Position numbers and translations under genes: made by a program. From Desulfatirhabdium butyrativorans DSM 18734 (GTDB taxonomy: Bacteria > Desulfobacterota > Desulfobacteria > Desulfobacterales > Desulfatirhabdiaceae), in contig NZ_AUCU01000009.1 of the NCBI RefSeq assembly GCF_000429925.1, forward strand, positions 1 through 64,000: a stretch of DNA of 64,000 nucleotides, in the 5' to 3' direction. Positions 39,024 to 61,251 of this stretch are shown here, piece by piece. Each line of letters starts with the position of its first letter. Position 1 is the first letter of the stretch. The notes beneath the pieces were generated by a model, which did not search any database, had not been told where the DNA came from, and saw only the letters and a list, made by a program, of their open reading frames with translations.

Positions 39024-40622
39024 GTGAAATGGCTTCAAATGAATTCGTGGATCCGCTTTGGACTGATCCTGCTTTTTGGCCTGTGCATCACAACGCCGCC
39101 TGTGGCGACCATCCTGATGCCCAGGCAGAATGTTTCGAAACTGGAGAATCGAAAGCTTGCCGAATTTCCGGAATGTCGCGGAGCGGATATTCGAAATTTT
39201 CCGATCCGGTTCGAAAGGTATTTCAAGGACCACATTGGCTTTCGGGACTTGCTGACGGTTCTGTACAACCGGGCAATGGTTGTCTGGTTCCAGCAATCTC
39301 CCAATCCCTTCTTTTCACTTGGAAAAGACGGATGGTTGTTCATCAGCTCGGAGCAATCAATGGATGATGTGTTGGGGAAAGCCGCTCTGGAACCGGAAAT
39401 GCTTCAGCAATGGGGATGGATGCTGCAGGGAAGAAAGGATTGGCTGGCCAAACAGGGGATACGCTACCTCTTTGTCATAGCCCCCGACAAACAGAGTATC
39501 TATCCGGAGTATCTTCCGGATGCCATCCGGAGAAGGGCGGCACGGACAAAGCGCATCGATCAGTTGACGGCTTATCTCAAGGCGCATACGACCGTTCCGG
39601 TCCTGGATTTGCGGCCTGCCCTGCTTGCAGCCAAATCAGCCGGCAGACAGATCTATTTCCGTTCGGATTCCCATTGGAACAGTGAGGCGGGATGGATTGC
39701 CTACCAGCAGATCATGGATGTCGTGACCGGCTGGTTTCCGGATCTTCAGAGGCTCGATCCATCTCGTGTCGTACAAGTACAAAGGCCCTTCGTCAGGGGA
39801 GACATCGCCACGCGGTTGGGAATGGGAGATTTCTTCCGGGAACAGGAAACAGCCTTCTGGGTGCCGGCATCCTGTGTCACATCGGTGAAACCGATTTTTA
39901 ACGAGGTTTCCCACTGGAAACACTGCCCGAGCGGCTCCCATCGCGTGATCGTGGCAAGGGATTCCTTCTTTGTTTTTATCGAACCCTATGTTTCCGAAAC
40001 GTTCCGGGAGGCTACTTTTATCTGGAAAGAATCACCTGCGACAACCAGCTACGATTATCCTTTGATCAAGCGCTTGATCCGGGAAGACAAGCCCGATCTG
40101 GTGATCGAAGAACGGGTCGAGCGGTTTCTGGGAGCTGGACCTGAAATGTCCCTGGAAGAGCAGTTCGATCAGGCTTCGGCAGCTTGCGTTTTGGATGCTG
40201 TGCATGGTTTTCAGGGACTTGAAGGGGTTCACGATGTGAAAGTGGTTTCCGGTTCAAGGGGATTGGGTATCCATGCCACCAGCGGAGATCCCTGGCTCCT
40301 GCTTCGGATCGATGAGCCGAAACCCGGTCCTGTAATTGTCCGTATCCAAATGGAAAGCCCTGTCGATACGAAAATGCAGGTTTTTTACAGAACGGACGAT
40401 CGCTCCGGTTATGCGGAGCGCAACAGTTTTTGGTATCCTCTCACAAAAGGCATGAATACGGTGTATGTCCTGCTGGAAAAGTCGCAGATGCTTCGGTATC
40501 TGCGGATCGATCCTGGCACAGCCGAAGGCCTTTATGTGCTGGAACGCATCGAAGTCCGTTCATTGCACCCCGATCCGGATGCATCCATCTCGTTTGATGG
40601 GACGCATCGTGCAACGCCATAG
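39024..40622 (+). CDS. AlgX/AlgJ-like SGNH O-acetyltransferase with C-terminal beta module
   Basis: About 532 residues from GTG 39024 (GAGGG nine bases upstream). A single N-terminal anchor (WIRFGLILLFGLCITTPP) precedes an AlgJ/AlgX-type SGNH domain. Its signatures are LENRKLAEFPE, HIGFRDLLTVLYNRAMV, GKDGWLFI, the catalytic D-x-H in FRSDSHWNSEAGW and the Ser site VIVARDSFFVFIEPYVSE. Family members transfer acetyl from an MBOAT partner to a polysaccharide in the periplasm. The last about 105 residues (SGDPWLLLRIDEP to YVLERIEVRSL) form a module repeated in four other proteins here. The MBOAT is two genes downstream. Confidence 0.85.
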   Translation: MKWLQMNSWIRFGLILLFGLCITTPPVATILMPRQNVSKLENRKLAEFPECRGADIRNFPIRFERYFKDHIGFRDLLTVLYNRAMVVWFQQSPNPFFSLGKDGWLFISSEQSMDDVLGKAALEPEMLQQWGWMLQGRKDWLAKQGIRYLFVIAPDKQSIYPEYLPDAIRRRAARTKRIDQLTAYLKAHTTVPVLDLRPALLAAKSAGRQIYFRSDSHWNSEAGWIAYQQIMDVVTGWFPDLQRLDPSRVVQVQRPFVRGDIATRLGMGDFFREQETAFWVPASCVTSVKPIFNEVSHWKHCPSGSHRVIVARDSFFVFIEPYVSETFREATFIWKESPATTSYDYPLIKRLIREDKPDLVIEERVERFLGAGPEMSLEEQFDQASAACVLDAVHGFQGLEGVHDVKVVSGSRGLGIHATSGDPWLLLRIDEPKPGPVIVRIQMESPVDTKMQVFYRTDDRSGYAERNSFWYPLTKGMNTVYVLLEKSQMLRYLRIDPGTAEGLYVLERIEVRSLHPDPDASISFDGTHRATP

Positions 40623-40632
40623 GAGGATGTTC

Positions 40633-42300
40633 GTGCAACGTGTGGATCACCGATTGTGCATCCATCACTGGTGCCGGATTTGCTGCATCGGTCTTTTCTG
40701 GATCATGCTGGCTGCGCCGTTGGTGGTGATGGGTGTGATGCCCGTAAAAACCGTATCGCAGAATGAAAACCGCAACCTTGCCGAATTTCCGAAACTCCAG
40801 GCGAATCGGTTGAATGCGTATTTCAGGGGGATCGAATCCTACTGGAACGATCACATCGGTTTCCGGGATGCGCTCACCTTCATCTACAACTACATCTTGT
40901 GGGCCGGTTTTGACCAATCCGGTTTTTCCTGGGTAACAGTGGGCAAATCGGGGTGGTTTTTTTTCGGAGGCGATCAATCCAATGAGGATGTGCTGGGCAA
41001 GGTGGTGTTGCGGGATGCGGACCTGAAGCAATGGGCCGGTGTCATTCAGGCCAAAAAGGACTGGTTTGACAGGCAGAACATCCGGTATGTGTTTGTTCTG
41101 GCTCCCAACAAGCAAAGCGTATACCCGGAATATCTGCCGGACTGGATGAGGCGGCATGCCGTTTCGGTCAGGCGGATCGACCGACTGGTGGAAGTGCTGC
41201 GAAAACATACCGATGTTGAAATCATCGATCTGCGGGACGCGCTCCTGCGGGAAAAAGATAGGGAGCCCGTTTTTTTCCGAACGGATTCGCACTGGAACTG
41301 GCAAGGGGCTTATGCCGCCTATCGGCAGGTCATCGACAGGCTTCACGACTGGTTCCCCGATATGGAGCCCTTGCCGAAGTCCCGAATGACCGAAATTGTC
41401 AGGGACTTTCGACACGGGGACCTGCGGATGGGATTGGATGGGGTGATTTGGGAAAAGGAAAGGGTGTGGTTGCCTGCGGAGCCTTGTTCCAAATGGAATG
41501 GAACGGCTTTTGACCGGTATCTGTATGAAAAGCGGTGCGGGACCGGTCGGACGCGGGCCATCGTTCTTCGGGATTCCTATATGGATTTTGTCGAGCCGTA
41601 TCTTTCGGAACATTTCGGAGACGTCGTCTATATCTGGAAACGCTGGGCCGAGGATTCCGGAACCGAACACCGGCTATACAAGGAATGGATCGAAAAGATG
41701 CGGCCGGATCTCGTCATCGAAGAGCGGGTCGAAAGACTGGTCGGACAGATTCCGGCAGTGACGATGGAACAGCGATTCGATTATGCCGATCCGGTTCTCG
41801 GTCATTGGGATGGCACCATCGGTTTCGACGGCATTGAACCCTATCACCAGGTTCGATTGGAACCCGAAAATGGAGGACTTCTGATATTTGCCACCGGAAA
41901 TGATCCCGGGGTGCGACTTCCCGAAATGGGGCAGAATACCGGCCCCCTGATCATCAGAATCGAGATCGAAAGCCCTGCGGATACGGTCCTGCAGATGTTT
42001 TATGCAACCGATGAAAAAAGCGGATACAGCGAAGCGAAAAGCCGGAAAATGTCACTCGAAAAAGGGGTAAACACGGTTTTTTTGTGTATTGAAGAGCCGG
42101 CAATCCAGGGGCAGTTGCGCCTGGACCCCGGATATGCCATTGGAACCTACCGCTTGCAATCGATAGAAATACGGAAGGATCAGGTTGCTTCCCTTTTGCA
42201 GGCGTATGACGCCGGGCGGATGAGTTCTCACGCTCGTTCGCAAATGGGAACCAGCAGACGACGCGTCGGCTCAACTATGGGTTCAGCCCATAACCCATAA
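40633..42300 (+). CDS. AlgX/AlgJ-like SGNH O-acetyltransferase, second copy, with C-terminal beta module
   Basis: A 555-residue paralogue of the previous gene. AGGAGG (40621-40626) sits directly before ATG 40627 but six bases before GTG 40633, so the GTG is the better start. The same SGNH signatures occur: ENRNLAEFPKL, DHIGFRDALTFIYNYIL, GKSGWFFFGG, FRTDSHWNWQGAY (D-x-H) and AIVLRDSYMDFVEPYLSE. The C-terminal module (GNDPGVRLPEMG to TYRLQSIEIRK) matches the first copy. The final 30 residues are low-complexity and partly derived from the CCATAACCTATAACC repeat at the gene end. Confidence 0.85.
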   Translation: MQRVDHRLCIHHWCRICCIGLFWIMLAAPLVVMGVMPVKTVSQNENRNLAEFPKLQANRLNAYFRGIESYWNDHIGFRDALTFIYNYILWAGFDQSGFSWVTVGKSGWFFFGGDQSNEDVLGKVVLRDADLKQWAGVIQAKKDWFDRQNIRYVFVLAPNKQSVYPEYLPDWMRRHAVSVRRIDRLVEVLRKHTDVEIIDLRDALLREKDREPVFFRTDSHWNWQGAYAAYRQVIDRLHDWFPDMEPLPKSRMTEIVRDFRHGDLRMGLDGVIWEKERVWLPAEPCSKWNGTAFDRYLYEKRCGTGRTRAIVLRDSYMDFVEPYLSEHFGDVVYIWKRWAEDSGTEHRLYKEWIEKMRPDLVIEERVERLVGQIPAVTMEQRFDYADPVLGHWDGTIGFDGIEPYHQVRLEPENGGLLIFATGNDPGVRLPEMGQNTGPLIIRIEIESPADTVLQMFYATDEKSGYSEAKSRKMSLEKGVNTVFLCIEEPAIQGQLRLDPGYAIGTYRLQSIEIRKDQVASLLQAYDAGRMSSHARSQMGTSRRRVGSTMGSAHNP

Positions 42301-42325: not shown

Positions 42326-42340
42326 TATGAGGATTCCTGT

Positions 42341-43780
42341 ATGAGCTTCAGCTCGATCATTTTTCTTTTCGGCTTTTTGCCGGTAGCGCTGCTGCTGTAT
42401 TTTATCAGTCCCGGCAGGGGCCGGAATACAGTCCTGCTGTTGCTGAGTCTCGTTTTCTATACCTGGGGCGAGGTCGAATATGTCTGGATTCTGGGCGTAT
42501 CGATCCTGGCCAATTATGTCGGGGGGCTTCTGGTCGATCGTTTCAGGAGCCGGATCGTTCTGGGGACGGCGATTGCAGCCAATATCGCTCTGCTCGGCGT
42601 CTTCAAATACGCCAATTTTCTGGTGGATTCCCTGAATGCCGTTTTGGGTTGGGCGCACATCCATCCAATCGCCATACCGGCAATGCACCTGCCGATCGGT
42701 ATTTCCTTCTATACGTTCAAGGCAATCTCCTACCTCATCGATGTTTACCGCCAGGAGGTTCCCGCCAACCGGGACCCATTTGATGTAGCGCTTTACATAT
42801 CGCTTTTCCCCAATTTGATGGCGGGCCCGATCGATCGTTACAAAGGCATTGCGGAGCGTATCCGGCAGCGAAGCGTTTCCCTGGAAGGCTTTTCCAACGG
42901 CGTTCAACGATTCATTGTCGGATTGGGGAAAAAGGTTCTGCTGGCAAGCACTCTGGCTGGCACGGTGGATAAAATTTATCAGATTCCGCAGCATGAATTG
43001 ACGTCGGTCCTGGCCTGGTTTGCGGCTGTCTGCTATACGTTACAAATTTATTTCGATTTTTCAGGATATACGGACATGGCTGTCGGACTGGGGCGGATGT
43101 TCGGATTCCGGTTGATGGAGAACTTCGAATTTCCCTACCGTTCGACCTCGATTCAGGAATTCTGGCGAAGATGGCATATTTCTCTGTCCACCTGGTTTCG
43201 GGATTATCTGTATATTCCGCTTGGGGGAAACCGAAAAGGAGAGATGCGAACGTATCTCAACCTGGCGGTCGTGTTCTTTTTGTGCGGGTTGTGGCACGGT
43301 GCCAACTGGACATTTGTGATCTGGGGCCTGTTCCATGGGCTTTTTCTCGTTCTGGAGCGGGCTGGATTGGCTTCGTGGCTTAAACGGACCTGGAAACCGA
43401 TTTCACATATCTATGCCATGCTGGTCGTGACCATCGGGTGGGTATTTTTCCGGGCCGAATCCCTGGGGAAAGCCACCGGCATGCTGAAGGCCATGTTCGG
43501 CGCGGCCCAGGGGGACGGTGTTTCCCAGCCCTTCGATTTTTTCTGGGATCGACACATCGGCTTTGTTTTGATATGCTCCATCGTCTTTTCCATGCCCATT
43601 TCGCAATGGTTACAGGATGGGAAACAGCGGCTGATGCAGGCGGGCGGGCCTCGAAAGAACACCATTTTGTTGAATGGATGGGAGATTGCAACTGTCTGCG
43701 GCCTGCTGCTGGTCATGATTGCATCCATGGCATCCCTCGCGGCCGGCGTGTATCAACCGTTCATCTATTTTAAGTTTTGA
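42341..43780 (+). CDS. AlgI-like MBOAT O-acyltransferase
   Basis: A 479-residue membrane-bound O-acyltransferase with about ten hydrophobic segments. The family's features are clear: LPIGISFYTFKAISYLIDVYR, FPNLMAGPIDRY, YFDFSGYTDMAVGLGRMFG, FEFPYRSTSIQEFWRRWHISLSTWFRDYLYIPLGGNRKG (shown here as FEFPYRSTS, FWRRWHISLS, YIPLGGNRKG) and the catalytic histidine in CGLWHGANW. It would pass acetyl groups across the membrane to the two AlgX/AlgJ-like proteins upstream, giving an O-acetylated polysaccharide. A short remnant of a second MBOAT head lies at 57949. Confidence 0.92.
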   Translation: MSFSSIIFLFGFLPVALLLYFISPGRGRNTVLLLLSLVFYTWGEVEYVWILGVSILANYVGGLLVDRFRSRIVLGTAIAANIALLGVFKYANFLVDSLNAVLGWAHIHPIAIPAMHLPIGISFYTFKAISYLIDVYRQEVPANRDPFDVALYISLFPNLMAGPIDRYKGIAERIRQRSVSLEGFSNGVQRFIVGLGKKVLLASTLAGTVDKIYQIPQHELTSVLAWFAAVCYTLQIYFDFSGYTDMAVGLGRMFGFRLMENFEFPYRSTSIQEFWRRWHISLSTWFRDYLYIPLGGNRKGEMRTYLNLAVVFFLCGLWHGANWTFVIWGLFHGLFLVLERAGLASWLKRTWKPISHIYAMLVVTIGWVFFRAESLGKATGMLKAMFGAAQGDGVSQPFDFFWDRHIGFVLICSIVFSMPISQWLQDGKQRLMQAGGPRKNTILLNGWEIATVCGLLLVMIASMASLAAGVYQPFIYFKF

Positions 43781-43866
43781 CGGCATCTCCAAACGCCACC
43801 AGCCCGGTAGGATTTCGCATTTGGCGGGATGTGGCCATCCTTGGTTCGACGCGTTGCTTTATCTGG

Positions 43867-43886
43867 ATTCCGGCTTTCGCCGGAAT
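43867..43886. repeat. Short palindrome ATTCCGGCTTTCGCCGGAAT
   Basis: A perfect 8-base stem with TTTC loop, continued by GACG, belongs to a widely dispersed proteobacterial intergenic palindrome (Neisseria dRS3-like). A diverged relative (ATTAGCCGGAATGACGGG) is near 59787-59803. It lies in the 43781-43946 gap, in which I see no other feature. Confidence 0.7.
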
Positions 43887-43946
43887 GACGACCGAAAACC
43901 TGTTCGATATTTTGGCTTGTGGGCGAAATTCCGCCTCAGGAACGTC

Positions 43947-46900
43947 ATGATCCATACTTCCGAAAAACCCTGTTCCATCACCGTCGTCATTCCCTGCTAC
44001 AACCAGGGGAAATATCTTGCTGAATCGATTGGCTCCGTTCTATCCCAGACCATCGATGATGTGGAAATCCTCATCGTCAACGACGGCTCGACCGATCCAG
44101 AAACGATCGAAGTCCTGAATACCCTTGCCTACCCGAAAACCCGGCTCATCCACACGACCAACCAGGGGCTGGCTGCGGCGCGCAACAACGGGATTCGTGA
44201 GGCGAAGGGTCGCTACATTCTGCCGCTCGATGCCGACGACCGGATCGGTCCGACCTATCTCGAGCAGGCCGTTCGAATTCTCGATGAAAATCCGGGAATC
44301 GGCATCGTTTACTGCAGGGCGGCTTTTTTCGGAGCTGTCGAAAAGCCCTGGAATCTTCCGGAATTTTCGCTCTCGGAGATGCTGATCGACAACATCCTTT
44401 TCTGCTCCTGTGTCTTTCGAAAGGCCGACTGGGAACTGGTAGGCGGCTACCGGACGGACATGATCTACGGATGGGAGGATTACGATTTCTGGCTGTCCCT
44501 GATCGAGCGGGGGCGGCTCGTCCATCGCATCCCCGAAGAGCTCTTTTTCTACCGGATCAGCCCGGAGTCGATGCTTCGAACGAAAACCCGTGAACAGAAA
44601 ATCGAGATGTATGAGCGGGTGTTTCATCACCATCGGGAATTTTTCGAACGCAACATCCGCCTGTGGATCGATCGGCTGATCGATATTCCCGTGGATCGTA
44701 CCCGCAAATGGATGGCCCAGGTCTATGTGGATACCGGCATGGGGTTTAATGAAAAGCAGACGGTTGTGGCCTATGTCGGAGGGGATGAACGAAACCTCGA
44801 ATTTGATCTGAGCCGGTTTGATCGGATTCAGGGCATCCGGATCGATCCGGTGAACAGCCCAGCCGTGGTTTGCCTGTATCGGATTGTGCTGAAGGATGCT
44901 TCGGGGCGGGAGCAGACCGCATCCATCCGGTCTCACAACGCATTGCTGGAAGAAGACGGCCATTTCGTGTTCACATCGACAGATCCGCACTGGATCATCG
45001 AGGGTATCGATGGCCCTGCCCGGTCGATTCGGGTCGAACTTGATTTCCTGGCGATTGGTAACGAGGCGTTCGACCGCTTGTTGCACCATCAGAATGTACG
45101 GATCGCCGAGCTGCAGCAGACGTTGCATGAGAAATCCATTCTGGTTTCTCAGCAGCGCGACCGGCTGGTTCATCTGGAAACCGTTCTTCAGGACAAGGAC
45201 CGTGCCATCCAGGACAAGGACCGTGCCATCCAGGACAAGGACCGACATATTCGCAACATCGAGTTTTCGTTGAACCGTATCAAGGGCTCATTGATCTGGC
45301 GAACGGCCGATTTCTGCCGAAAATGGATGGTTTTCTTTCCGATCGATCTTGCCCGGAAATCGTTCAAGGCTGCCGATATCCTGCGAAGAGAGGGAATGCG
45401 GGGGCTTTTCCACCATCTGTGGCTGCATCTGACCAAGGCCGATCGGCAGCAGGCCGAAGAGCAGCCGGCGGTTGTGGGGATCGGTCTTACCCAGGCGGAT
45501 TATGAAGCTTGGATGGCGACCCGTCGCTTGAGCGACGACCGTCGGAACGAGATACGTCGTCAGATTGCCGCAATGCCTGTGAAACCGAAAATCAGCGTCA
45601 TCGTTCCGGTGTATGAGGTCGATGGCATCTGGCTGGAGAAGGCCATCCAATCGGTTGTGGATCAGGTGTACGACAACTGGGAGCTTTGCCTTGCCGACGA
45701 TGCTTCCCCGTCCGGGCATATTCGGGAAATTCTTCAGAAATGGGCGGATCGGGAACCCCGTATCCGGGTGCACTTTCTCACCCGAAACCGGGGGATTGCC
45801 CTTGCATCCAATGCGGCTGCTCAGATGGCGACCGGCGACTTCATCGGTTTCCTGGATCACGACGACACCCTTTCACCGGATGCCCTCTTCGAAGTGGCAT
45901 CGGTGCTGCAGCAGCATCCGCAAGTCGATCTGGTCTACAGCGACGAGGACAAGATGGACCTCGATGACCGCCGGATCGAGCCCTTTTTCAAGCCGGACTA
46001 TTCTCCGGATCTTCTCTTATCTCAGAATTACATCTGCCATTTCACCGTCGTTCGAAAAACCCTCTTCGATACCGTTGGCGGTTTCCGCGACGGGTTCAAC
46101 GGCTCTCAGGACCATGATCTCATCCTGCGGATCCTCGAGAAAACGGATCAGGTAGCCCACATTCCCAACATCCTGTATCATTGGCGAAAAATACCCGGAT
46201 CGACGGCAGCCGTCTATGATGCGAAGTCCTATGCCTGGGAAGCAGGCAGAAAAGCCATCGAGCAGACACTGAAGGCAAGAGGTGTCGAGGCTTCTGTGTT
46301 CTGTGGAAGATGGCAGGGAAGCTATCGGGTGAAACGACGAATTTCCGGTCAGCCTCTTGTTAGCATCCTGATTCCCTTTCGGGATCGGGCCGATCTTCTC
46401 GAAACATGCATCCTCTCCGTACTCGAAAAATCGAGCTGGCCGGCTTTCGAGATCATCGGCATCGACAACGGAAGCTCGGCACCTGAGACAGCGAAGCTCA
46501 TGCAGCGACTGGCCGATATGGACGCCCGGGTGACATTTCTTCCGTATCGAGAGCTGTTCAATTATTCCGCCATCAACAATTTCGCTGTTTCCCAGGCGAA
46601 GGGGGAACATGTCGTTCTGATGAACAGCGACATCGAAATCATCACCCCTTCTTGGATCGAGGCCCTGCTCGAGCACAGCCAGCGTCCGGAAGTCGGAGCC
46701 GTCGGAGCCAAGCTGTATTATCCCGACGGCCGGATTCAACATGCCGGAATCGTTGTCGGTATGTTCGGAAATGCCGGACATCCCCACCGCTTCTTCCAGC
46801 CGGATGACAACGGTTATTACGCCAGACCTCATGTCATCCACAACGTGAGCGCTGTTACCGCAGCCTTGATGATGGTGAAAAAATCCCTGTACGAAAGCGT

Positions 46901-47195
46901 CGGCGGTCTCGATGCGGCGCATTTGGGGATCGCTTACAATGACGTGGATTTTTGTCTCAAGCTTCGGCAGAAAGGTCTGCTCAACGTCTTTACGCCGTAT
47001 TGCGAGGCCATTCATCACGAATCCGCATCGCGTGGGTATGAATCTACATCGGAAAAGCGAGAGCGTTTCGAGCGGGAGCGGCAGCTGTTCGAAAGCCGAT
47101 GGGCTGGGGTCATCGATGCCGGAGACCCCTATTACAATGTGAATCTCAGTCTGAAATCCGAGGATTTCGCCATCCGGCTGGAGCGGGAACCATGA
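43947..47195 (+). CDS. Triple-domain GT2 glycosyltransferase
   Basis: A 1082-residue protein from ATG 43947 (AGGA upstream). Three GT-A domains are visible. Domain 1 (residues 10-230) has ITVVIPCYNQGKYLAESIG, ILIVNDGSTDP and LPLDADDRIGP. Domain 2 (from about 545) has ISVIVPVYEVDGIWLEKAI, LADDASPSG and GFLDHDDTLSPDAL. Domain 3 (from about 800) has VSILIPFRDRADLLETCI, GIDNGSSAPE and VVLMNSDIEIITP, ending NDVDFCLKLRQKG. Between domains 1 and 2 lie a lipid/glycan-locus beta region (DLSRFDRIQGIRIDP, FTSTDPHWIIEG) and a short coiled coil made of a 21-base tandem repeat (KDRAIQD, 45190-45250). It may act as a chain polymerase-like transferase. Confidence 0.88.
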   Translation: MIHTSEKPCSITVVIPCYNQGKYLAESIGSVLSQTIDDVEILIVNDGSTDPETIEVLNTLAYPKTRLIHTTNQGLAAARNNGIREAKGRYILPLDADDRIGPTYLEQAVRILDENPGIGIVYCRAAFFGAVEKPWNLPEFSLSEMLIDNILFCSCVFRKADWELVGGYRTDMIYGWEDYDFWLSLIERGRLVHRIPEELFFYRISPESMLRTKTREQKIEMYERVFHHHREFFERNIRLWIDRLIDIPVDRTRKWMAQVYVDTGMGFNEKQTVVAYVGGDERNLEFDLSRFDRIQGIRIDPVNSPAVVCLYRIVLKDASGREQTASIRSHNALLEEDGHFVFTSTDPHWIIEGIDGPARSIRVELDFLAIGNEAFDRLLHHQNVRIAELQQTLHEKSILVSQQRDRLVHLETVLQDKDRAIQDKDRAIQDKDRHIRNIEFSLNRIKGSLIWRTADFCRKWMVFFPIDLARKSFKAADILRREGMRGLFHHLWLHLTKADRQQAEEQPAVVGIGLTQADYEAWMATRRLSDDRRNEIRRQIAAMPVKPKISVIVPVYEVDGIWLEKAIQSVVDQVYDNWELCLADDASPSGHIREILQKWADREPRIRVHFLTRNRGIALASNAAAQMATGDFIGFLDHDDTLSPDALFEVASVLQQHPQVDLVYSDEDKMDLDDRRIEPFFKPDYSPDLLLSQNYICHFTVVRKTLFDTVGGFRDGFNGSQDHDLILRILEKTDQVAHIPNILYHWRKIPGSTAAVYDAKSYAWEAGRKAIEQTLKARGVEASVFCGRWQGSYRVKRRISGQPLVSILIPFRDRADLLETCILSVLEKSSWPAFEIIGIDNGSSAPETAKLMQRLADMDARVTFLPYRELFNYSAINNFAVSQAKGEHVVLMNSDIEIITPSWIEALLEHSQRPEVGAVGAKLYYPDGRIQHAGIVVGMFGNAGHPHRFFQPDDNGYYARPHVIHNVSAVTAALMMVKKSLYESVGGLDAAHLGIAYNDVDFCLKLRQKGLLNVFTPYCEAIHHESASRGYESTSEKRERFERERQLFESRWAGVIDAGDPYYNVNLSLKSEDFAIRLEREP

Positions 47196-48934
47196 AGCGA
47201 AATCTTGAAGCGCTTCGGCATACGGACTTCGACCTGGTCATTGTCGGAGGGGGAATTACCGGGGCTTGCCTGTGCCATGATGCCGCTCTGCGCGGCTGGC
47301 GGGTAGCGCTGCTGGAAAAAGGGGATTTCGGCGGATTCACGTCATCGGCATCCTCTAAGCTCATTCACGGAGGTATCCGGTATTTGCCCACAGGTCAGTT
47401 CTGGAAAGTGCGGGAGTCCTCGGAGGAAAGGGCTTTTTTCCACAATATCGCCCCGCACGCGACCCGAACCATTCCTTTTATCGTTCCGACCTTCGTGAGC
47501 GGCTGGATGAAAGGGCGGGCGGCCATGTTGGCCGGCCTGACCTTGTACGAGTGGATCGGCCTTGGATTGAACGACAGGATTCGGGATCCGGGCAAAAAGG
47601 TTCCGGTAAGCCGTTTCATCGGCCGAAACGAGCTGGTACGCCGCTTTCCGCTCCTTCATCGCTTGGACGGGTTGAGCGGAGCCTACATCCTGTATGAATC
47701 CCATATGGTCAGTTCGGAGCGGATGACGCTGGCGTTCGTCAAGAGCGCCTGTCGCAATGAAGCCGTTGCCGCCAACTACCTGCAGGTGACCGATTTCCTT
47801 CGCCTGCGCGACAAAACGGTCGTGGGGGTTGTGGCCGAGGACCGGTTCAGCGGGGAGCGGATCGAAGTACGGGGGCGGGTTGTCGTGAACGCGGCAGGTC
47901 CTCATATTCCGATACTGAACGATCTGCTGCCGGAATTGCGGCTCAAGAAGCGGCCTGCCGGGTATTCCAAGGGCGTGCATCTGGTGACCCGCCAAATTCT
48001 TCCCGATCATGCACTGACCTTGACGACCCGAAAGAAAATTCAAGGAGTCCTTACAAGAGGCGGAAGGCATGTTTTCATCATTCCGTGGCGCCACCGCTCT
48101 CTGATCGGCACGACGGATGTCCCTTTTTCTGGAAACCTGGACGATGTCCGGGTGACGGAAAGCGATATTCTCGACTTCATGGAAGATCTCAACGCCTGCC
48201 TGCCGGGGCTGAATTTGTGCCTCGAAGACGTTCACTACGCCTGGGCAGGCCTCTATCCTCTGCTCGTTCGGGAAATCAAACCCGATACCTATCAGGGAAC
48301 CGGCGAATATCAGATTGTGGATCACGAGAAGCAGGACGGTATCCCAGGAATCTGGACGGTTTTCGGCGCCAAGTATACGACAGCAAGACGGGTGACGGAA
48401 AAGGCGGCGGATCGAATCGCCGGGAAGCTGGGATGGGGGAGCCGCTGTCGGCCGACTCGTCACGCCCCCCTGGAAGGGGGCGCCATTCGGTGCGTGGAAA
48501 CGTATCGAAGGGATCTCCTGAACCGGTATGCGGGGCAGGTGGATGCCGAAGTGCTGGATCATCTGCTCTTCCTGTATGGAACGGAAACGGAAACATTGAT
48601 TCGTTATGGGATCGAAGAGAAGTCGCTCTTGGAGCCGATTTCACCGGATTTCCCGTCCATCCGCGCCCAGGTCGTCCATGCCGTCCGCTGCGAGATGGCC
48701 ATGACCCTTTCGGATGTGTTGTTCCGAAGAACCGATATAGCCACTGCGGGATATCCTGGACGCCAAACAGTCATTGATGTCGCCGAAGGGGTGGGTCGAT
48801 GCCTGGGTTGGGATGAAGGGCGCAAGGCGGTCGAAATAGAAGAAGTCGAACAGGCCTATGCAGTGATTCGCACCGTTCAGGGCAAAGGGGGAAGCCGCAG
48901 CCGTATCGGTGGTATGAGCGAGGAGGAAAGGTGA
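47192..48934 (+). CDS. FAD-dependent glycerol-3-phosphate dehydrogenase-like oxidoreductase (GlpD family)
   Basis: A 580-residue protein starting with an ATGA overlap to the GT2. The FAD-binding motif LVIVGGGITGACLCHDAALRG is at residues 16-36 (GxGxxG), followed by SSASSKLIHGGIRYL and VVNAAGPH, all hallmarks of GlpD. The region IIPWRHRSLIGTTDVPF and the C-terminal DUF-type domain also match. GlpD converts glycerol-3-phosphate to dihydroxyacetone phosphate at the membrane. In a glycan operon this is unexpected; it could supply or recycle a glycerol-phosphate-derived substituent, or oxidise another polyol phosphate. The stop overlaps the next start (GTGA). Confidence 0.85.
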   Translation: MKRNLEALRHTDFDLVIVGGGITGACLCHDAALRGWRVALLEKGDFGGFTSSASSKLIHGGIRYLPTGQFWKVRESSEERAFFHNIAPHATRTIPFIVPTFVSGWMKGRAAMLAGLTLYEWIGLGLNDRIRDPGKKVPVSRFIGRNELVRRFPLLHRLDGLSGAYILYESHMVSSERMTLAFVKSACRNEAVAANYLQVTDFLRLRDKTVVGVVAEDRFSGERIEVRGRVVVNAAGPHIPILNDLLPELRLKKRPAGYSKGVHLVTRQILPDHALTLTTRKKIQGVLTRGGRHVFIIPWRHRSLIGTTDVPFSGNLDDVRVTESDILDFMEDLNACLPGLNLCLEDVHYAWAGLYPLLVREIKPDTYQGTGEYQIVDHEKQDGIPGIWTVFGAKYTTARRVTEKAADRIAGKLGWGSRCRPTRHAPLEGGAIRCVETYRRDLLNRYAGQVDAEVLDHLLFLYGTETETLIRYGIEEKSLLEPISPDFPSIRAQVVHAVRCEMAMTLSDVLFRRTDIATAGYPGRQTVIDVAEGVGRCLGWDEGRKAVEIEEVEQAYAVIRTVQGKGGSRSRIGGMSEEER

Positions 48935-50238
48935 AACCTCTCCGAACGGTTGTGTCCCGAATGGCCGATGCGATGCGGAGCCATCCGAAGCTCTCGAGGA
49001 TGCTGCTGGCGGGTCTTTTGTTGCGGCTTCTGATCATGCCGTTTTTTGCGCATGTCGATTTTCTGAGCGAATATGCGCGGATTTTCGCCAGCCTCCGTCA
49101 GGGGAATCCCTTTCTGTATCCGTCCCGCCCGATCCTTACCCTGATCGAGCTGTTGTTTCTGAAACTGACGATTCCTCTTCTTCCCGAGCATGGCGAGATC
49201 CTGCTGCTGCGCAACGCCATGCAACCGACGGCAGGCCTTTCGGATTATTTTCTCTTCGTGAGTGATCCGGGCATCTACCGAACGCTGTTTCTGCTCAAAA
49301 TTCCCTATCTCCTCTTCGATATGGGGACGGCGCTCGTCTTGTTCCGGATGCTTTCCGGAAGCCGGTACCAGTGGACAGCGTTGCGGCTTTGGTGGTTCAA
49401 TCCGGTGACCATCTATGCTTTCTATATTTTCGGGCGCTACGAATCCATTGCACTGTTTTTCATCGCCCTGACCCTGGCCGCACTCCAGCAGGAAAAACGA
49501 ATCGCTGCGGCCGTCGCTTTCGGGCTTGCGATGAACTGTCGGGAAATCGTGTTCATGTACGCACCGTTGTTCATCCTGTCGTTATGGAGCGGATCGCTTC
49601 AGAAAAAGGACGTTCGTTCGCTGATCGTACCGCTTGGGATCGTGATCGGATTCATTGGATTGTCCGTCGGGATTCGCCATTTTTTCGGCAGCCACTCCCC
49701 CCTGTCTGAGGCTGGAAGAAGTGAAGCCGATTTTGGATTTGCCTTGTTCGGGATGCAGCATGGATGGCTGCTGCCGTTTTTCCTGTGGTACGGCATGGTG
49801 GGCATCTGGCTGTTTGAAACCCGCCAGCGCAATCCGATGATCCGATTCGGTGTGTCGGTCAATGCGGCGCTGATCGGATTTTTTCTGTTCGTAACCCACA
49901 GTGCCCATTATCCTTCCTGGATGATGGTTTTTCCGGCGGCATTGATGGCTGCCGGATGCAGGCCGGTCAGGGCGATTGTGTTGTTTTCGGCAGCCTGGTT
50001 CCTGTACTGGATGTTTCATACCGATGCAGGGGTGTTCACCCTGTTTCTGGCATCTCCGCTGACCGTCAACTTCTTCGGATGGGAAACCCTTCCGCAACGT
50101 TATGCCGAATGGATCGGAGACGCCCGCCTCCTTTCTCTGGACAGGCTGCAAGTGATCGTACACAATATCTATGCCTCCTGCCTCCTGTATTGGGCATGGA
50201 AAATTCTGCGAACGGATACCTATGACCCTGTTTCGTAA
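48931..50238 (+). CDS. Polytopic membrane protein, GT-C-like (copy 1)
   Basis: A 435-residue membrane protein with about ten helices, GTG start 48931 after GAGGAGGAAAG. Diagnostic stretches are LIMPFFAHVDFLSEYARIFASLRQGNPF near the N-terminus, FVSDPGIYRTLFLLKIPYLLFDMGTA, and WWFNPVTIYAFYIFGRYESIALFFIALTLAALQQEKRIAAAVAFGLAMNCREI (given in parts: NPVTIYAFYIFGRYES, GLAMNCREI), reminiscent of GT-C/DUF2029-type mannosyltransferases. A clear paralogue with the same segments is at 58379. It overlaps the envelope beta-module gene by 17 bases, a pairing repeated in the second copy. Confidence 0.7.
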   Translation: MKPLRTVVSRMADAMRSHPKLSRMLLAGLLLRLLIMPFFAHVDFLSEYARIFASLRQGNPFLYPSRPILTLIELLFLKLTIPLLPEHGEILLLRNAMQPTAGLSDYFLFVSDPGIYRTLFLLKIPYLLFDMGTALVLFRMLSGSRYQWTALRLWWFNPVTIYAFYIFGRYESIALFFIALTLAALQQEKRIAAAVAFGLAMNCREIVFMYAPLFILSLWSGSLQKKDVRSLIVPLGIVIGFIGLSVGIRHFFGSHSPLSEAGRSEADFGFALFGMQHGWLLPFFLWYGMVGIWLFETRQRNPMIRFGVSVNAALIGFFLFVTHSAHYPSWMMVFPAALMAAGCRPVRAIVLFSAAWFLYWMFHTDAGVFTLFLASPLTVNFFGWETLPQRYAEWIGDARLLSLDRLQVIVHNIYASCLLYWAWKILRTDTYDPVS

Positions 50239-51430
50239 TGCCTGGGGATGGATGTTTCTGCTTCTTGCCGCTTGGATCTTTCCATCTCCGGTGCGGTGTG
50301 AGGAAGCCGTCCTGGCGGCATTTTTGGAAAAGGCAGCGTGGCAACTTCACGATGTCCGCCAGGCCGAAGACGGTGCCTTCGAAATCGTCGGATCCGATCC
50401 CCAGTGGATTTCGCCTGCGATTCAGAAGCCGCTGACCGCCGTTCGGGGATTTTTCGGGGAACTCTCCTTCGAGAATTGTCCATCCGCTGTTTCTGTGCAA
50501 TTGTTTTGGGGAACCGATGAGAGCGGTTACACCGAAGCATCGAGCTATCGCTTTACGGCCGATCCCGACAAGGCGGGACGGCTCGCGTTCTTCCTGCCCT
50601 TCGATCCGGAATGGCTGGCCCATGCCGTGACGAAGTCGGCCCTTCTGCATCATCTTCGACTGGATGTCGATGCACCGGTAGGCAAAAGGCTTCGCATTCG
50701 GCAAATCGGTATTGTACAAACGTTTCAACCGGATCTGGCCCGCTGGATTCCCCCGGATCTCGTTTATCCCGTTCTGGAACGGGAAGTTCCATCGGATGTT
50801 TCCGAGATCGGCCCTTGGAGGGAGCATGACCTGATGCCGGATGGGGATGGGTTCTGGCGGGTGGCTGGTGAAGACCCGTTCTGGCTTTCTCCGAATATCG
50901 ACATTTTCCCCCGACGGGTGAAGGGGGTATTCGTCGAGATGGATGTTCAGCCGTCCGTTTCCTTGAAACGGATTGCGTTGCAGGTGTTCTGGAGAACGTA
51001 TGAATTGGATTTCAATGAAATACGGAGCTTTCGCTTGATCGTCCGACCCAGGGATGGTGCCGTGCGATTTTTCCTGCCGCTTCTCGTATTGCCGCCGGAT
51101 GATCTGCTGAAGCATCTGCGAATTGATCTGGACGGATGTGCATCGTGCAAAGTCCGGTTGCGTTCAGTGCAATTCGTGACTGGAGATCTTCGGGAATATC
51201 GGGCTTGGTTGCCGCGGCAGTTGATCTACGGCCTCGGGAAAAACGTTTATGGAAGGAATATTCTCGAGGATATTGCGGCCAATCTCCGAAGAGACAAGAT
51301 CTTTCTGTTGTTGTATGGATGCTGTATCGCAGGATGTGTGTGGCTTCTGTATCCTCTGCGAGGCCGAAAGCACCCGTCTGTCGGATCCCAAGATGCTACG
51401 GAGTGCAAGCATACGGCATCGGGATGCTGA
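50222..51430 (+). CDS. Exported protein of two beta modules with C-terminal membrane anchor (copy 1)
   Basis: A 402-residue protein from ATG 50222. A signal peptide (residues 1-25, ending VRCEE) is followed by two copies of a roughly 150-residue module. Module 1 has VGSDPQWISP, VQLFWGTDESGYTEASSY and LRLDVDA; module 2 has AGEDPFWLSP, LQVFWRTYELDFNE and LRIDLDGCASCKVRLRSVQFV. Near the C-terminus YGLGKNVYGRNILEDIA precedes a hydrophobic helix (IFLLLYGCCIAGCVWLLYPL). The module also ends the two AlgX-like proteins. It is probably periplasmic, inner-membrane anchored and glycan-binding; no known family was recognised. A paralogue is at 60061. Confidence 0.65.
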   Translation: MTLFRNAWGWMFLLLAAWIFPSPVRCEEAVLAAFLEKAAWQLHDVRQAEDGAFEIVGSDPQWISPAIQKPLTAVRGFFGELSFENCPSAVSVQLFWGTDESGYTEASSYRFTADPDKAGRLAFFLPFDPEWLAHAVTKSALLHHLRLDVDAPVGKRLRIRQIGIVQTFQPDLARWIPPDLVYPVLEREVPSDVSEIGPWREHDLMPDGDGFWRVAGEDPFWLSPNIDIFPRRVKGVFVEMDVQPSVSLKRIALQVFWRTYELDFNEIRSFRLIVRPRDGAVRFFLPLLVLPPDDLLKHLRIDLDGCASCKVRLRSVQFVTGDLREYRAWLPRQLIYGLGKNVYGRNILEDIAANLRRDKIFLLLYGCCIAGCVWLLYPLRGRKHPSVGSQDATECKHTASGC

Positions 51431-51498
51431 AATGGATATCCGCTCTTTACTTTTTTGCAGGAATGGCGACAACCCTTCACAAACAGACAAGGACTTGA

Positions 51499-53361: not shown

Positions 53362-53366
53362 CTCCT

Positions 53367-53386
53367 GATTTTTTACAAATCCATCG
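53367..53386. repeat. 20-mer dispersed motif, degenerate
   Basis: GATTTTTTACAAATCCATCG lies six bases after the asnB stop and just before the Shine-Dalgarno of the next gene. It matches the 20-mer at about 14 of 20 positions. Confidence 0.4.
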
Positions 53387-53406
53387 TAACGTAGAGGAGA
53401 TTCGTA

Positions 53407-54387
53407 GTGAACATACTGGTGACTGGAGGGACAGGGTTTACCGGAAAGGCGCTGGTGCGCAGGTTGTTGCAGGATGGTCATCGGGTGGTTGCCCTGGATT
53501 ACAAGGAAGGGCTCAAAACCCAGGAGCTTCGGGACTGGGGGGCCAAGGTGGTTATCGGAAGCGTTACCGATCCGGAAGTGGTCGACCGATGCATGAAGGA
53601 TATCGAGGTAGTCCACCATCTGGCTGCAGCGTTCCGGGAACTGGACGTGCCCAACCGGTATTATTACGAGGTCAACGTCGAAGGCACCCGAACGGTTCTG
53701 GATGCCGCCTGGCGGCATGGTGTCCGAAAATTTATTTACTGCAGTACCTGTGGTGTGCATGGCAACATCGATCATCCCCCTGGCGATGAAACGGCTCCCA
53801 TTCATGCGGCGGATTATTATCAGCAGACGAAATACGAAGCCGAACCGGTCGTTCAGTCCTATTTCCGAAAGGGTTTGAAAACCGTCATTCTGCGACCTGC
53901 TGCGATCTCCGGCGATCCCGAACGCTTTTTCATGATCTTCAAGCGCGTCGCATCGGGGGTGTTCCCGATGTTCGGGGATGGAAAAACCCTCTATCATCCG
54001 TTGTACATCGATCACCTGGTGGATGCCTTCGTTTTGAGTATGGCGGAAGGCAAGGGGGACGGAGAAGCCTACCTCATCGCAGACGAGCATTATCTGACCA
54101 TCGAGGAATTGGTCCGTCGAACGGCCAAAGCCTTGGGGGTACGGGTCAAAATTCCCCATTTTCCCCTTCTTCCTGTCATGATTGCGGGTCATGTGTGTGA
54201 AGCCGTTTGCAAACCCTTTCATATCGCTCCGCCGATTTTCCCGAGAAGGGTGGACTGGTTTCGGCAGAACAGAGCCTTTAAGATCGACAAGGCGAAGCGG
54301 GATCTGGGATATCGACCCACGGTCGATATCGACGAAGGGTTGAGACGGACGGCGCAGTGGTATCGAGAAGAAGGGCTTCTTTCGTGA
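53407..54387 (+). CDS. NAD-dependent SDR (epimerase / 3-beta-HSD-like), copy 1
   Basis: A 326-residue extended SDR starting at GTG 53407 with GAGGAGA seven bases upstream. The NAD motif is TGGTGFTGK; the catalytic triad's YQQTK lies near residue 145. HHLAAAFRELDVPNRYYYEVNVEGT is characteristic of 3-beta-HSD and sterol-type or hopanoid-type nucleotide-sugar SDRs. The C-terminus CEAVCKPFHIAPPIFPRRVDWF is shared with the 62589 gene. It probably modifies a sugar nucleotide or a lipid-linked intermediate. Confidence 0.82.
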   Translation: MNILVTGGTGFTGKALVRRLLQDGHRVVALDYKEGLKTQELRDWGAKVVIGSVTDPEVVDRCMKDIEVVHHLAAAFRELDVPNRYYYEVNVEGTRTVLDAAWRHGVRKFIYCSTCGVHGNIDHPPGDETAPIHAADYYQQTKYEAEPVVQSYFRKGLKTVILRPAAISGDPERFFMIFKRVASGVFPMFGDGKTLYHPLYIDHLVDAFVLSMAEGKGDGEAYLIADEHYLTIEELVRRTAKALGVRVKIPHFPLLPVMIAGHVCEAVCKPFHIAPPIFPRRVDWFRQNRAFKIDKAKRDLGYRPTVDIDEGLRRTAQWYREEGLLS

Positions 54388-58047: not shown

Positions 58048-58050
58048 TGT

Positions 58051-58265: not shown

Positions 58266-58382
58266 AATGATGTGGACTTTTATCTGAAACTGCGGCAAAA
58301 TGCCCGCCTCAATGTCTTCAGCCTCGATTGCAAGGCGATTTATCATGAATCCGAAGACTTGGCCATTCGGCTGCCGGAGTGA
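58266..58382 (+). pseudogene. C-terminal remnant of the triple GT2 glycosyltransferase
   Basis: The frame from AAT 58266 reads NDVDFYLKLRQNARLNVFSL and DCKAIYHESEDLAIRLPE to TGA 58380. It matches the end of the 43947 gene (NDVDFCLKLRQKGLLNVFTP, YCEAIHHES and SEDFAIRLERE) with an internal deletion of about 50 residues. Upstream bases 58190-58265 may hold a further degraded piece. The TGA overlaps the GTG of the next gene, as in copy 1 where GlpD intervenes. Confidence 0.85.
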
Positions 58383-59728
58383 AACCTGTGGGCGAACGAA
58401 ATTGGATGGAACGCCTTCGAAATGCCTTTAGCCAGGATCATGCCGGACTGATCCCGCTGCTCGGCGCTGGCTTGCTGATCCGTCTGCTGCTGATGCCGTT
58501 TTTTGCTCATGTCGATTTTCTGTCGGAATACGGCAGGATGTACCAGATTGTCGCTACCGGAAAACCGACACTCTACCTGGGCCGGATCGTTGTCGTTTTG
58601 ATCGAGCAGATCTTTCTCCGGCTGTTTCTGCCGCTTTTACCCGATGCCGGTACCATGTTGCGTTTCAACGACATGAGACAGTCAACGGCCGGGCTGCCCG
58701 AATATTTTCTCTTCGTGAGTGATCCTCAGATTTTCCGAACCCTCTTTCTCCTGAAGATTCCCTACCTTCTCTTTGACCTATGTACCGCCTGGGTGCTTTG
58801 CCGGCTGATGTCCGGAAAGACCGGGCAGAAAACGGCCCTTTGCCTGTGGCTCTTCAATCCAATTACGCTTTATGCGTTTTATGTCTTCGGCCGTTTCGAA
58901 TCCATCCCGATTTTTTTTCTGGCGCTGACCCTGTTTTTGCTGAAGAAAGACCGCTGGATCGCTTCCGCTGTCGCTCTCGGACTTGCCATAAACTGCCGGG
59001 AAATTATCGTGCTCTATCTGCCCCTGTATGCATTTGCCCTTTTCGACAGGGATTGGAATCGAGGTGTCGTTGCGCGCCGGGTGATTCCCGCATGGATTGT
59101 CCTGTTGCTGATAACGATTCTGCCGTTTTGGATGAAAATGCACCTTGAAACACCGCTTGCGGCGGGTTCTGCCATGCAGGATATGGAAAGCGCTCAGGCC
59201 TTGCTCGGGATGCAGTTTCATTGGTTCGAGCCATTCGTCTTCTGCTATGCAGCCATCTGCCTGTGGTTGATCGAGGATCGCTCCCTGGATGCATTCGAAC
59301 GCTTTTTGACGGCCACAGGGCTTTGCATCCTGAGTTTCCTGCTGGTGGTCTCCCACAGTGCCCATTATGCATCCTGGATGGTGTTGTTCCCGATTGGCGC
59401 GCTGTATTTCGAAAAACCGCTGCTGAAACCTTTTCTGATCTTTTGTGCCTGCTGGCTGGTGACGTGGGCGGTGCAGACCGATGCCGGGGTATTTACCTTG
59501 TTTCTGGCTTCTCCGCTGTCCATGAATTTTTTCAGTTTCAAAACGCTGCTCGGGGTATATGAAAACACCGTCGGACCTCATGTGCCGATCAGTCGCAGCA
59601 TGCTCATCTGGTCGATGAAAACGATCTATGCGGCGTGCATAGCCTATCTGATGGTTCTTTTTTTTCGAAAGTCCGGTACTGGCCATGCATCATGTCCTGT
59701 TTATCGTGAAAATCAAGGTAGCCTGTAG
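58379..59728 (+). CDS. Polytopic membrane protein, GT-C-like (copy 2)
   Basis: A 449-residue paralogue of the 48931 protein, GTG start 58379 in a GTGA overlap with the GT2 remnant. The shared stretches are LLMPFFAHVDFLSEYGRMYQ, FVSDPQIFRTLFLLKIPYLLFDL and NPITLYAFYVFGRFESIPIFFLALTLF. The protein appears intact, so it may still work although its upstream partners are lost. The stop codon overlaps a 28-base palindrome. A beta-module gene follows after a repeat-filled gap, as in copy 1. Confidence 0.7.
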   Translation: MKPVGERNWMERLRNAFSQDHAGLIPLLGAGLLIRLLLMPFFAHVDFLSEYGRMYQIVATGKPTLYLGRIVVVLIEQIFLRLFLPLLPDAGTMLRFNDMRQSTAGLPEYFLFVSDPQIFRTLFLLKIPYLLFDLCTAWVLCRLMSGKTGQKTALCLWLFNPITLYAFYVFGRFESIPIFFLALTLFLLKKDRWIASAVALGLAINCREIIVLYLPLYAFALFDRDWNRGVVARRVIPAWIVLLLITILPFWMKMHLETPLAAGSAMQDMESAQALLGMQFHWFEPFVFCYAAICLWLIEDRSLDAFERFLTATGLCILSFLLVVSHSAHYASWMVLFPIGALYFEKPLLKPFLIFCACWLVTWAVQTDAGVFTLFLASPLSMNFFSFKTLLGVYENTVGPHVPISRSMLIWSMKTIYAACIAYLMVLFFRKSGTGHASCPVYRENQGSL

Positions 59729-59752
59729 GGGCGACCGGCGGGTCGCCCCTAC
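59725..59752. repeat. GTAGGGGCGACC palindrome
   Basis: A 12-base stem (GTAGGGGCGACC / GGTCGCCCCTAC) with four-base loop, the same element as 9201-9228. Bases 59726-59728 are the TAG stop of the upstream gene. The gap 59729-60060 holds this palindrome, a diverged ATTAGCCGGAATGACGG element and two related segments (59822-59852 and 59971-60005, both ending CGCCATGA.CAT.TATCG). Confidence 0.8.
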
Positions 59753-59889
59753 GAGTCCCTGCAAATGCCTTGGTCTGTATTACCGCATTAGCCGGAATGA
59801 CGGGTTGGGTTTTCATTCCCAGACGAGGCGACTCCGCCATGAGCATTTATCGTGAACATCTGAATTCAGGACAAAGTTTTAAGGGTTAA

Positions 59890-59925
59890 GGGGTGGATCG
59901 GAACGTTTTGATTTTGTAGGGGCGG
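59890..59925. repeat. GGGGTGGATCGGAACGTTTT repeat
   Basis: The segment GGGGTGGATCGGAACGTTTT, continuing to TAGGGGCGG, recurs at 63625-63653 with GGGGTGGATGGGAACGTTTT and TAGGGGCGG. Both lie in gaps before or after a beta-module or SDR gene of the duplicated segment. Confidence 0.6.
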
Positions 59926-60060
59926 CTCTCTGTGGCCGCCCTCCCGGAACCAGGGATCGTATTTTTATCCACGAGGGCGGTGACCCTCGCCATGAACATG
60001 TATCGAAAAAAAATTCGCCTGGGCGTTTTGCAACGCCTTCAAAGGTGGTTATCGCCTCGA

Positions 60061-61251
60061 ATGGATAAAACATTCAAGATTGTTTGCTGGATCATCGCAA
60101 CGATGGTTGTTTGCTGCGGGCTGCCCTGCTCCAGTGCCCAGGCCCAGACCGGTCCGCTCATTCCGATCCGCATCCAGGGGAAGGTTCTGGAACAAGCCTG
60201 GATGTTGAACGATATGGTGCAGACGGAAGATCGCCGGTTTCAGGGGGCAGGGCCGGATCCCTACCTCGTGAGCCCCGAACTGGGCGTTCCGATTCGGGAT
60301 GTGAATGGAATTGTCCTGTATTTGCAGGGTGATCCGGAAAATGGACCCATTCCGATACAGGTATACTGGAAAACCGATGTCCACGGCTTCCGGGAAGATA
60401 CGAGTTTCATTTTTTCAGTTGAAGCCACCGGCAAACCGCAGAGGGTCTGGCTGCCGTTTGCGGATGCCATTCTTCCGGGATCGGATACGGTACGGCTGTT
60501 GCTTATTCGGGTCGATTGGGTGAGGCTTGGGGATACCATTGGATTTTCCCGGATGGATGTCCTTCTCAACGGAGAAACACCGCCTGCGGATGCCATGCTG
60601 CCATTGATGATTCGTGAACCGATACGGGAAATCCCCATTCATGATGATTTCTGTCAATACGGCGAATATCGGATACACGACATGATCGCTGAAGGATCGG
60701 ATGCCTGGCGGGTGAATGGGGCGGATCCGTATCTGGAGACAGCCGATCTCAACGTTCGGCTCATGCGGGTCAAGGGAATGTATATCCGATTCCGAATCAG
60801 CGGTCGCGAAAATCCGTATCCGTTTCAGGTCTTCTGGAAAACCTATTCCGCCGATTACGATGAAAAGCGCAGTTTTTGGCTCCGCGCGCAGGTGAAGGAC
60901 GGTGAAGGCGCCTTCTACATTCCATTCCGGGTGCTGCCTGTCGAGGATATGCTGAAAACGATCCGGATCGATCTCGAAAAATGTCCGAACTGCCTTTTTC
61001 AAATGGTGGAAGGCAGGCTGATCACCCGCGAAGATCCGGCATTGCTGCGGCAGGTTCCACCGAACATCATGGTGGCATTGGGCCGAAGCGTATATGGAAA
61101 GGATGTTCTGCAGGACATTGTGGAAAAATCGCGGCGTGATCCCGGATTTCTGGCGGTATGGGGTTTACTGGTTATTGCCGTGGCCGGCGTTACCGGGTAC
61201 ATTGTGTGGAAGGGGCGCGTTTCCAGGAAACTGAGGGGCGGGGTTTCATGA
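60061..61251 (+). CDS. Exported protein of two beta modules with C-terminal membrane anchor (copy 2)
   Basis: About 396 residues if started at ATG 60061, which gives a good signal peptide (MDKTFKIVCWIIATMVVCCG). ATG 59992 and an earlier start are in frame but lie in a repeated segment. It is a paralogue of the 50222 gene: module 1 has AGPDPYLVSPELG, IQVYWKTDVHGFREDTSF; module 2 has NGADPYLETADLN, FQVFWKTYSADYDEKRSF and IRIDLEKCPNCLFQMVEG. VALGRSVYGKDVLQDIV precedes the terminal helix (LAVWGLLVIAVAGVTGYIVW). Both copies lie just after the GT-C-like membrane protein, so the two probably act together. Confidence 0.65.
   Translation: MDKTFKIVCWIIATMVVCCGLPCSSAQAQTGPLIPIRIQGKVLEQAWMLNDMVQTEDRRFQGAGPDPYLVSPELGVPIRDVNGIVLYLQGDPENGPIPIQVYWKTDVHGFREDTSFIFSVEATGKPQRVWLPFADAILPGSDTVRLLLIRVDWVRLGDTIGFSRMDVLLNGETPPADAMLPLMIREPIREIPIHDDFCQYGEYRIHDMIAEGSDAWRVNGADPYLETADLNVRLMRVKGMYIRFRISGRENPYPFQVFWKTYSADYDEKRSFWLRAQVKDGEGAFYIPFRVLPVEDMLKTIRIDLEKCPNCLFQMVEGRLITREDPALLRQVPPNIMVALGRSVYGKDVLQDIVEKSRRDPGFLAVWGLLVIAVAGVTGYIVWKGRVSRKLRGGVS

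Follow-up and report, generated by a model that had tools for sequence, protein, structure and literature searches.

How a single chain is recognized by the acetyltransferases, glycosyltransferases and other enzymes that assemble a surface glycan is largely open. Carbohydrate-binding modules (CBMs) have been studied extensively in enzymes of breakdown, but scarcely in enzymes of assembly. Extracytoplasmic O-acetylation usually relies on an AlgX-like protein paired with a membrane-bound O-acyltransferase (MBOAT). The CBM of Pseudomonas AlgX has been proposed to guide alginate (PMC4148444), and AlgF, which consists of two beta-sandwich domains, mediates the contact between AlgJ and AlgX as an adaptor (PMC10641220). 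In phage R4C, residues 482-629 of the megatron have been assigned as a carbohydrate-binding domain by the authors of the structure (PDB 8gtc), from the similarity of its fold to that of CtCBM11 (PMC10276861). The module described here is present in seven copies, one of them circularly permuted according to profile alignment and structure prediction, in five proteins of one polysaccharide gene cluster of Desulfatirhabdium butyrativorans DSM 18734. This cluster is located in a stretch of 64,000 nucleotides (contig NZ_AUCU01000009.1, positions 1 to 64,000), which is termed the window.

All of the carrier genes are on the forward (+) strand, and their modules were located with the profiles described below. 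Each of the two AlgX-like SGNH acetyltransferases contains one module at its C-terminus. AlgX-like 1 (38919..40622), which has one N-terminal transmembrane (TM) segment and the DSHW and RDS triad motifs, contains module A (40203..40568), and AlgX-like 2 (40465..42300), which is 42% identical to AlgX-like 1, contains module B (41818..42189). These proteins match Pfam ALGX with E-values of 1.5e-24 and 7.3e-22, respectively. Two further proteins contain two modules each. Protein C (50171..51430) consists of a signal-peptide-like N-terminus, modules C1 (50321..50722) and C2 (50795..51184), and a C-terminal TM segment (about 51299-51355). Protein D (59932..61251), which is 30% identical to protein C, consists of an N-terminal TM segment or signal, modules D1 (60181..60573, the most diverged) and D2 (60643..61035), and a C-terminal TM segment (about 61150-61206). 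All of these six copies are in the standard order. The seventh copy, module E (44709..45056), is located between the first of three glycosyltransferase family 2 (GT2) stretches detected by Pfam and a coiled coil in a triple GT2 protein (43719..47195), and is complete and circularly permuted (strands 6-7-8-9-10-1-2-3-4-5). About 75 codons at the start of this GT2 open reading frame (ORF) as listed (43719-43950) read LDSGFRRNDDRKP, a stretch which we take to be typical of a dispersed repeat, and the true start is probably a later ATG (MIHTSEKPCS). An eighth copy is located outside the window, on contig C10 of the same genome, where a third AlgX-like protein carries it at the C-terminus. The DxH(W) motif and the nucleophilic serine in the DS block are kept in the AlgX-like proteins (SDSHW/ARDSF, TDSHW/LRDSY and TDTHW/FRDSY).

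The recurrence of a pattern at these places had been proposed by a sequence-only reading of the window, and is confirmed both by a motif scan and by profiles made without the window copies. When all 536 stop-to-stop ORFs of at least 60 codons in the window are scanned against shuffled controls, the complete four-part motif of that reading is found three times in the ORFs and not at all in the shuffles, and Q[VLM]F[YW]xT is found five times as compared to 0.0 expected from the shuffles. All of these occurrences are in the five carriers. The short motif is not diagnostic alone, as neither D1 nor the GT2 copy fits it to the letter. In the alignment of the six standard-order window copies, D, P, Q, T, E and S are invariant. 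The standard-order profile, built from 18 copies of other loci, retrieves AlgX-like 2 (E 1.7e-34), AlgX-like 1 (7.9e-28), protein D (9.6e-8) and protein C (6.1e-6), with the GT2 ORF at E 0.55 and the best non-carrier ORF of the window at E 2.7. The permuted-order profile, built from 17 permuted copies, retrieves AlgX-like 2 (4.5e-14), the GT2 protein (1.5e-11), AlgX-like 1 (3.8e-11), protein C (8.2e-10) and protein D (9.7e-5), with the best non-carrier ORF at E 3.4. Together, these profiles retrieve exactly the five carriers among the window ORFs. The profiles of the AlgX type and the double-module type align with each other by hhalign with a score of 52.6, as compared to a maximum of 19.4 for 200 column shuffles.

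The GT2 copy had been regarded as partial in the sequence-only reading. It is instead an entire module in which the two halves are swapped, the QVYVDTGMGFNEKQT ... IRIDP part coming first and the HFVFTSTDPHWIIE part second, the reverse of the order in the standard copies. This order of the halves recurs in many relatives. When the standard and permuted profiles are aligned, two segments are obtained, in which standard columns 46-123 align with permuted columns 3-80 (E 1.7e-16) and standard columns 3-37 align with permuted columns 91-126 (E 2.5e-6). The first segment covers 78 columns with a score of 93.6, and the second segment is wrapped around. When the permuted profile is doubled, one alignment of 120 columns is obtained in a single pass, with a score of 125.6 and an E-value of 1.9e-20. 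Merging of two segments upon doubling of a profile is the pattern by which circular permutation is normally recognized. The strand order in the AlphaFold2 models is 1-10 for module B and, with one short additional strand, 6-10,1-5 for the GT2 copy. The residues common to the permuted and standard forms are GxDP, QhFW/Y, Y/FxExxS and LRxDP. In a joint alignment of both forms after rotation, which presupposes the permutation, R is conserved in 42/42, D in 41/42, P in 41/42, a second D in 39/42 and E in 37/42. These results establish, at the level of sequence, the homology of the standard and permuted forms, and profile alignment and predicted structure together show the GT2 copy, as modelled, to be a circular permutant of the standard module.

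A third arrangement, 5-10,1-4, appears from the profile alignments to be present in membrane proteins of relatives, cut one strand earlier than the GT type. In the membrane-type module, the first strand is the equivalent of RIEIES in module B. This cut point is supported, because in hhalign the standard profile aligns from column 46 onward with a permuted set made up mostly of the membrane type, whereas it aligns with the GT type from column 54 only. Modules are arranged in tandem in proteins C and D and in relatives (L013, L058/L068 and L079-L081). Such tandem modules would be a natural intermediate, and the permutation may have arisen through tandem duplication. The L079-L081 protein (G045:C323) is a GT2 protein of 1557 residues with three permuted-module matches in tandem.

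The standard form is shown by structure prediction to fold as a CBM-like jelly-roll of about 120 residues, in agreement with the earlier description of the module as beta-rich. The AlphaFold2 model of module B is a compact two-sheet jelly-roll of ten strands, with a predicted local distance difference test score (pLDDT) of 87.4 and a predicted template modelling score (pTM) of 0.83, and the model of module E has a pLDDT of 89.4. When the standard form is compared with PDB by Foldseek, 122 matches are obtained at E <= 0.001, in which CBMs match with E-values of about 2e-5. The best 50 of these 122 matches are mostly CBM16, 29, 4, 22, 6 and 11 and a hyaluronan-binding module, with TM-scores of up to 0.66. 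The permuted model gives 0 matches in PDB at E <= 0.001. As Foldseek aligns sequentially, this is consistent with a strand order that is not represented in solved structures. The viral fold search gives many phage tail jelly-rolls, which are too unspecific for use.

The module had been left without a named domain by the sequence-only reading, and no Pfam or NCBIfam model covers it in the window carriers, where NCBIfam gives GT2-type matches outside the module only. No relevant Pfam family is above its curated cut-off for the 24 standard-order and 22 permuted-order modules, nothing relevant to the module is found in PHROGs, and neither the six window copies nor the permuted profile has a match in a PDB sequence search. 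Mann_GBD_bact (PF21253, mannanase galactose-binding-like) matches part of the permuted GT2 module of one relative below threshold (24.2 bits against a cut-off of 27), but this is a single carrier and the window copies do not have the match. Img2, a mitochondrial ribosomal protein family, matches the GT2 module in a single sequence with 19.2 bits against a cut-off of 34.4 bits and was taken as chance. The literature searched, which was not exhaustive, contains no description of the module. It appears to be a family unregistered in Pfam and NCBIfam that is carried by assembly enzymes and includes circularly permuted forms, with a fold that is itself already known. It resembles CBM16, 29, 4, 22 and 6 in size, in its predicted two-sheet jelly-roll and in being a separate module on carbohydrate-active enzymes, but differs from known CBMs in that it has no Pfam match, is carried by biosynthetic rather than degradative enzymes and occurs also with a rotated strand order.

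The best PDB sequence match, obtained by hmmsearch, is residues 502-624 of chain M of 8gtc, the megatron of R4C, a Dinoroseobacter phage (E 0.025, profile columns 9-115). This match covers nearly the whole module and is the only PDB sequence match near significance. A profile of the phage relatives of the megatron domain aligns with the module by hhalign over 60 columns with a score of 32.7, as compared to a maximum of 19.4 for 200 shuffled controls. These alignments suggest that the module and the megatron domain are likely to be kin. The megatron domain shares the standard strand order, but belongs to a phage tail protein, in which it is inserted in a mannanase-like domain. Relatives of the megatron domain (L083-L085) are common in tail tip and fibre proteins of Klebsiella siphophages.

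In relatives, the standard form is detected in 22 of the 389 genomes sampled from the class and 14 of the 395 sampled from the phylum, and the permuted form in 13 of 146 from the order and 10 of 297 from the phylum; both distributions are patchy, and the counts of the two forms overlap because their profiles cross-match. The carriers include, by Pfam, ALGX, Acyl_transf_3, GtrII, PMT_2 (weak), GT2, GT4, methyltransferase-GT, Radical_SAM and SPASM proteins. Many unnamed polytopic proteins carry a permuted module between their first and second predicted TM segments, small TM-module-TM proteins are also found, and several contigs encode two or more different carriers. In a genome of the same family (G005), an AlgX-like protein (L015) and an adjacent OafA-like acyltransferase-3 (L017) carry 75% identical modules (77.6% at the DNA level over 407 bases), and their catalytic parts do not align. 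The copies are 15-46% identical to module B. Because the L015 and L017 modules are 75% identical and the identity of module B to module A (44%) is matched by that to the module on a SPASM radical-SAM protein (46%), the sequence comparisons show that the module spreads independently of the catalytic domain, with exchange between unrelated acyltransferases. Named records with the module are two Deltaproteobacteria metagenome-assembled genomes, found at two loci in a scan of genome contigs with a narrow alignment. One likely copy is present on plasmid pACIB of Aliarcobacter cibarius (Campylobacterota), in an unannotated stretch of 111 codons (L137:5986-6321); a TM-bearing ORF is located directly upstream, and the stretch may be frame-broken. 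A tblastn search of plasmids and phages with the GT2 copy gives no match.

The polysaccharide binding suggested by the sequence-only reading is plausible, and is favoured by the fold neighbours, the likely phage relative, the glycan-assembly carriers and the near-identical modules on unrelated acyltransferases. Its statement that all carriers are periplasmic or membrane-bound does not hold, as the GT2 protein has no TM segment by hydropathy and radical-SAM and methyltransferase-GT carriers are found in relatives. The module is probably a shuffled, CBM-like jelly-roll that binds the surface polysaccharide of the cluster or its lipid-linked precursor. It is carried by the proteins that would acetylate (the two AlgX-like proteins) and elongate (the triple GT2) one surface polysaccharide and deal with it at the membrane (proteins C and D), and each enzyme of the pathway would hold the same growing or finished chain near its catalytic site through the module. 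This role would be comparable to that of CBMs on hydrolases and to the one suggested for the Pseudomonas AlgX CBM. A glycan handle is favoured because the fold is that of CBMs, the carriers occur on either side of the membrane, the module is exchanged between enzymes that share only the substrate, and AlgX provides a precedent; from these points we infer both the ligand and the tethering role. The conserved acids possibly form a metal or structural site. It is an even call whether the module represents a new CBM family for polysaccharide assembly instead of breakdown, permuted at two cut points and exchanged so that the enzymes of a locus read the same locus-specific glycan. Permutation would permit fusion at a C-terminus, insertion where a catalytic domain joins a coiled coil, or insertion between two membrane helices. 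A module that recurs in rotated forms on several kinds of enzymes of one glycan locus offers a simple test of a common handle that sets acceptor specificity, and would allow annotators to assign many membrane proteins that are now unnamed to glycan loci.

Several observations weigh against glycan binding. Sugar binding does not follow from a CBM fold alone, the TM-scores are mostly 0.5-0.66, and the fold matches include Cry toxin and ephrin-receptor domains. Pseudomonas AlgX is not in the best 50 of the 122 fold matches of the standard module. The link to the R4C megatron is weak by itself, and the domain was named carbohydrate-binding from its fold, without a binding assay. The radical-SAM/SPASM carriers have no obvious glycan substrate. 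AlgF, the two-sandwich protein of an analogous acetylation system, does not bind alginate (PMC10641220).

The alternative that survives best is that the module is a protein-protein adaptor, which holds the enzymes together or attaches them to a shared scaffold and couples synthesis, acetylation and export, as AlgF does. Like AlgF (PMC10641220), which is periplasmic and works with AlgX and MBOAT proteins, proteins C and D are pairs of tandem beta-sandwich modules without a catalytic domain. They differ from AlgF in that they have a C-terminal TM anchor and do not match Pfam AlgF, with protein C giving no Pfam match at all and protein D none that is relevant. The presence of the same module on several enzymes of one cluster would suit a common docking partner, and the radical-SAM carriers fit better with docking than with glycan binding. 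However, the fold neighbours of the module are mostly CBMs, whereas protein-binding domains head the neighbours reported for AlgF (PMC10641220), and a likely relative of the module is present on phage tail proteins. The carriers are on both sides of the inner membrane, which would make one common protein partner unlikely; a glycan is favoured over a single protein partner because the glycan and its lipid-linked precursor would be present on both sides. On balance, the analysis considers glycan binding to be probable and an adaptor role to be unlikely, although the latter is the strongest of the rivals.

It is quite improbable that the module is an inert structural spacer, a stable jelly-roll that positions or solubilizes catalytic domains and has spread by duplication without a specific ligand. 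The wide divergence of the copies from module B would be expected of such a spacer, and the most conserved residues (R, D and DP) are next to strands, where they could stabilize the core. Nevertheless, the modules on the unrelated, neighbouring acyltransferases of one locus are still 75% identical, and the invariant polar residues persist even though the chain is permuted. That the standard module is merely the known AlgX CBM, inherited with the AlgX-like enzymes, and the remaining copies are unrelated jelly-rolls is very improbable, because, although modules A and B and the C10 copy directly follow the SGNH domain as does the CBM of P. aeruginosa AlgX (PMC4148444, PMC9734138), phmmer aligns the SGNH part only, with no detectable sequence similarity in the CBM region (AlgX residues 348-463), independent profiles retrieve copies in non-AlgX proteins, and AlgX is absent from the best 50 of the 122 fold matches.

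Both AlgX-like genes adjoin the gene for an AlgI/PatA-like MBOAT acyltransferase without a module (42341..43780, +; Pfam MBOAT E 6.8e-29), which is expected to be their acetyl donor partner. Proteins C and D each follow a polytopic membrane protein. The first of this duplicated pair (48931..50238, +), which is GT-C-like by appearance and has no Pfam match above the cut-off, is 46% identical to the second (58379..59728, +). The polytopic protein (46%), the double-module protein (30%) and a downstream NAD-dependent epimerase (42%) are encoded twice in the same order, at 48931-54387 and 58379-63572, with different intervening genes. The second unit appears to be a duplicated cassette, because all three pairs are related between the two units. 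The copy number of the module may have risen through tandem gene duplication (AlgX), internal duplication (C and D) and cassette duplication. No close relative of the double-module protein is found in the genome contig search, and none of the C/D type is seen outside its own genome among the relatives searched. The idea that C and D are the split-off halves of the fused module-polytopic proteins of relatives is unsupported, as their polytopic partners match one such fusion with an E-value of only 0.006 over 73 residues. This idea is also weakened by a homologue of the polytopic partner in G040, which is 43% identical and adjoins a GT2 gene rather than a module protein gene.

A glycerol-3-phosphate dehydrogenase-like protein (FAD oxidoreductase) is encoded amid the polysaccharide genes at 47099-48934, and is possibly linked to a glycerol-phosphate part of the glycan. 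Elsewhere in the window, a large, repeat-rich, secreted protein (4588-7314) and a neighbouring subtilisin-like protein (7555-9162) have similar domains of roughly 100 residues at their C-terminal ends (TNxYGxTPxHxWF ... LGLxxGDTxAYAYAY), perhaps as a sorting signal. The protein encoded at 9387-10463 contains coiled-coil repeats in tandem (AQLKTDAQIAELRAAQKITGEQIAELREAQKKTDEQ), followed by a nuclease-like C-terminus.

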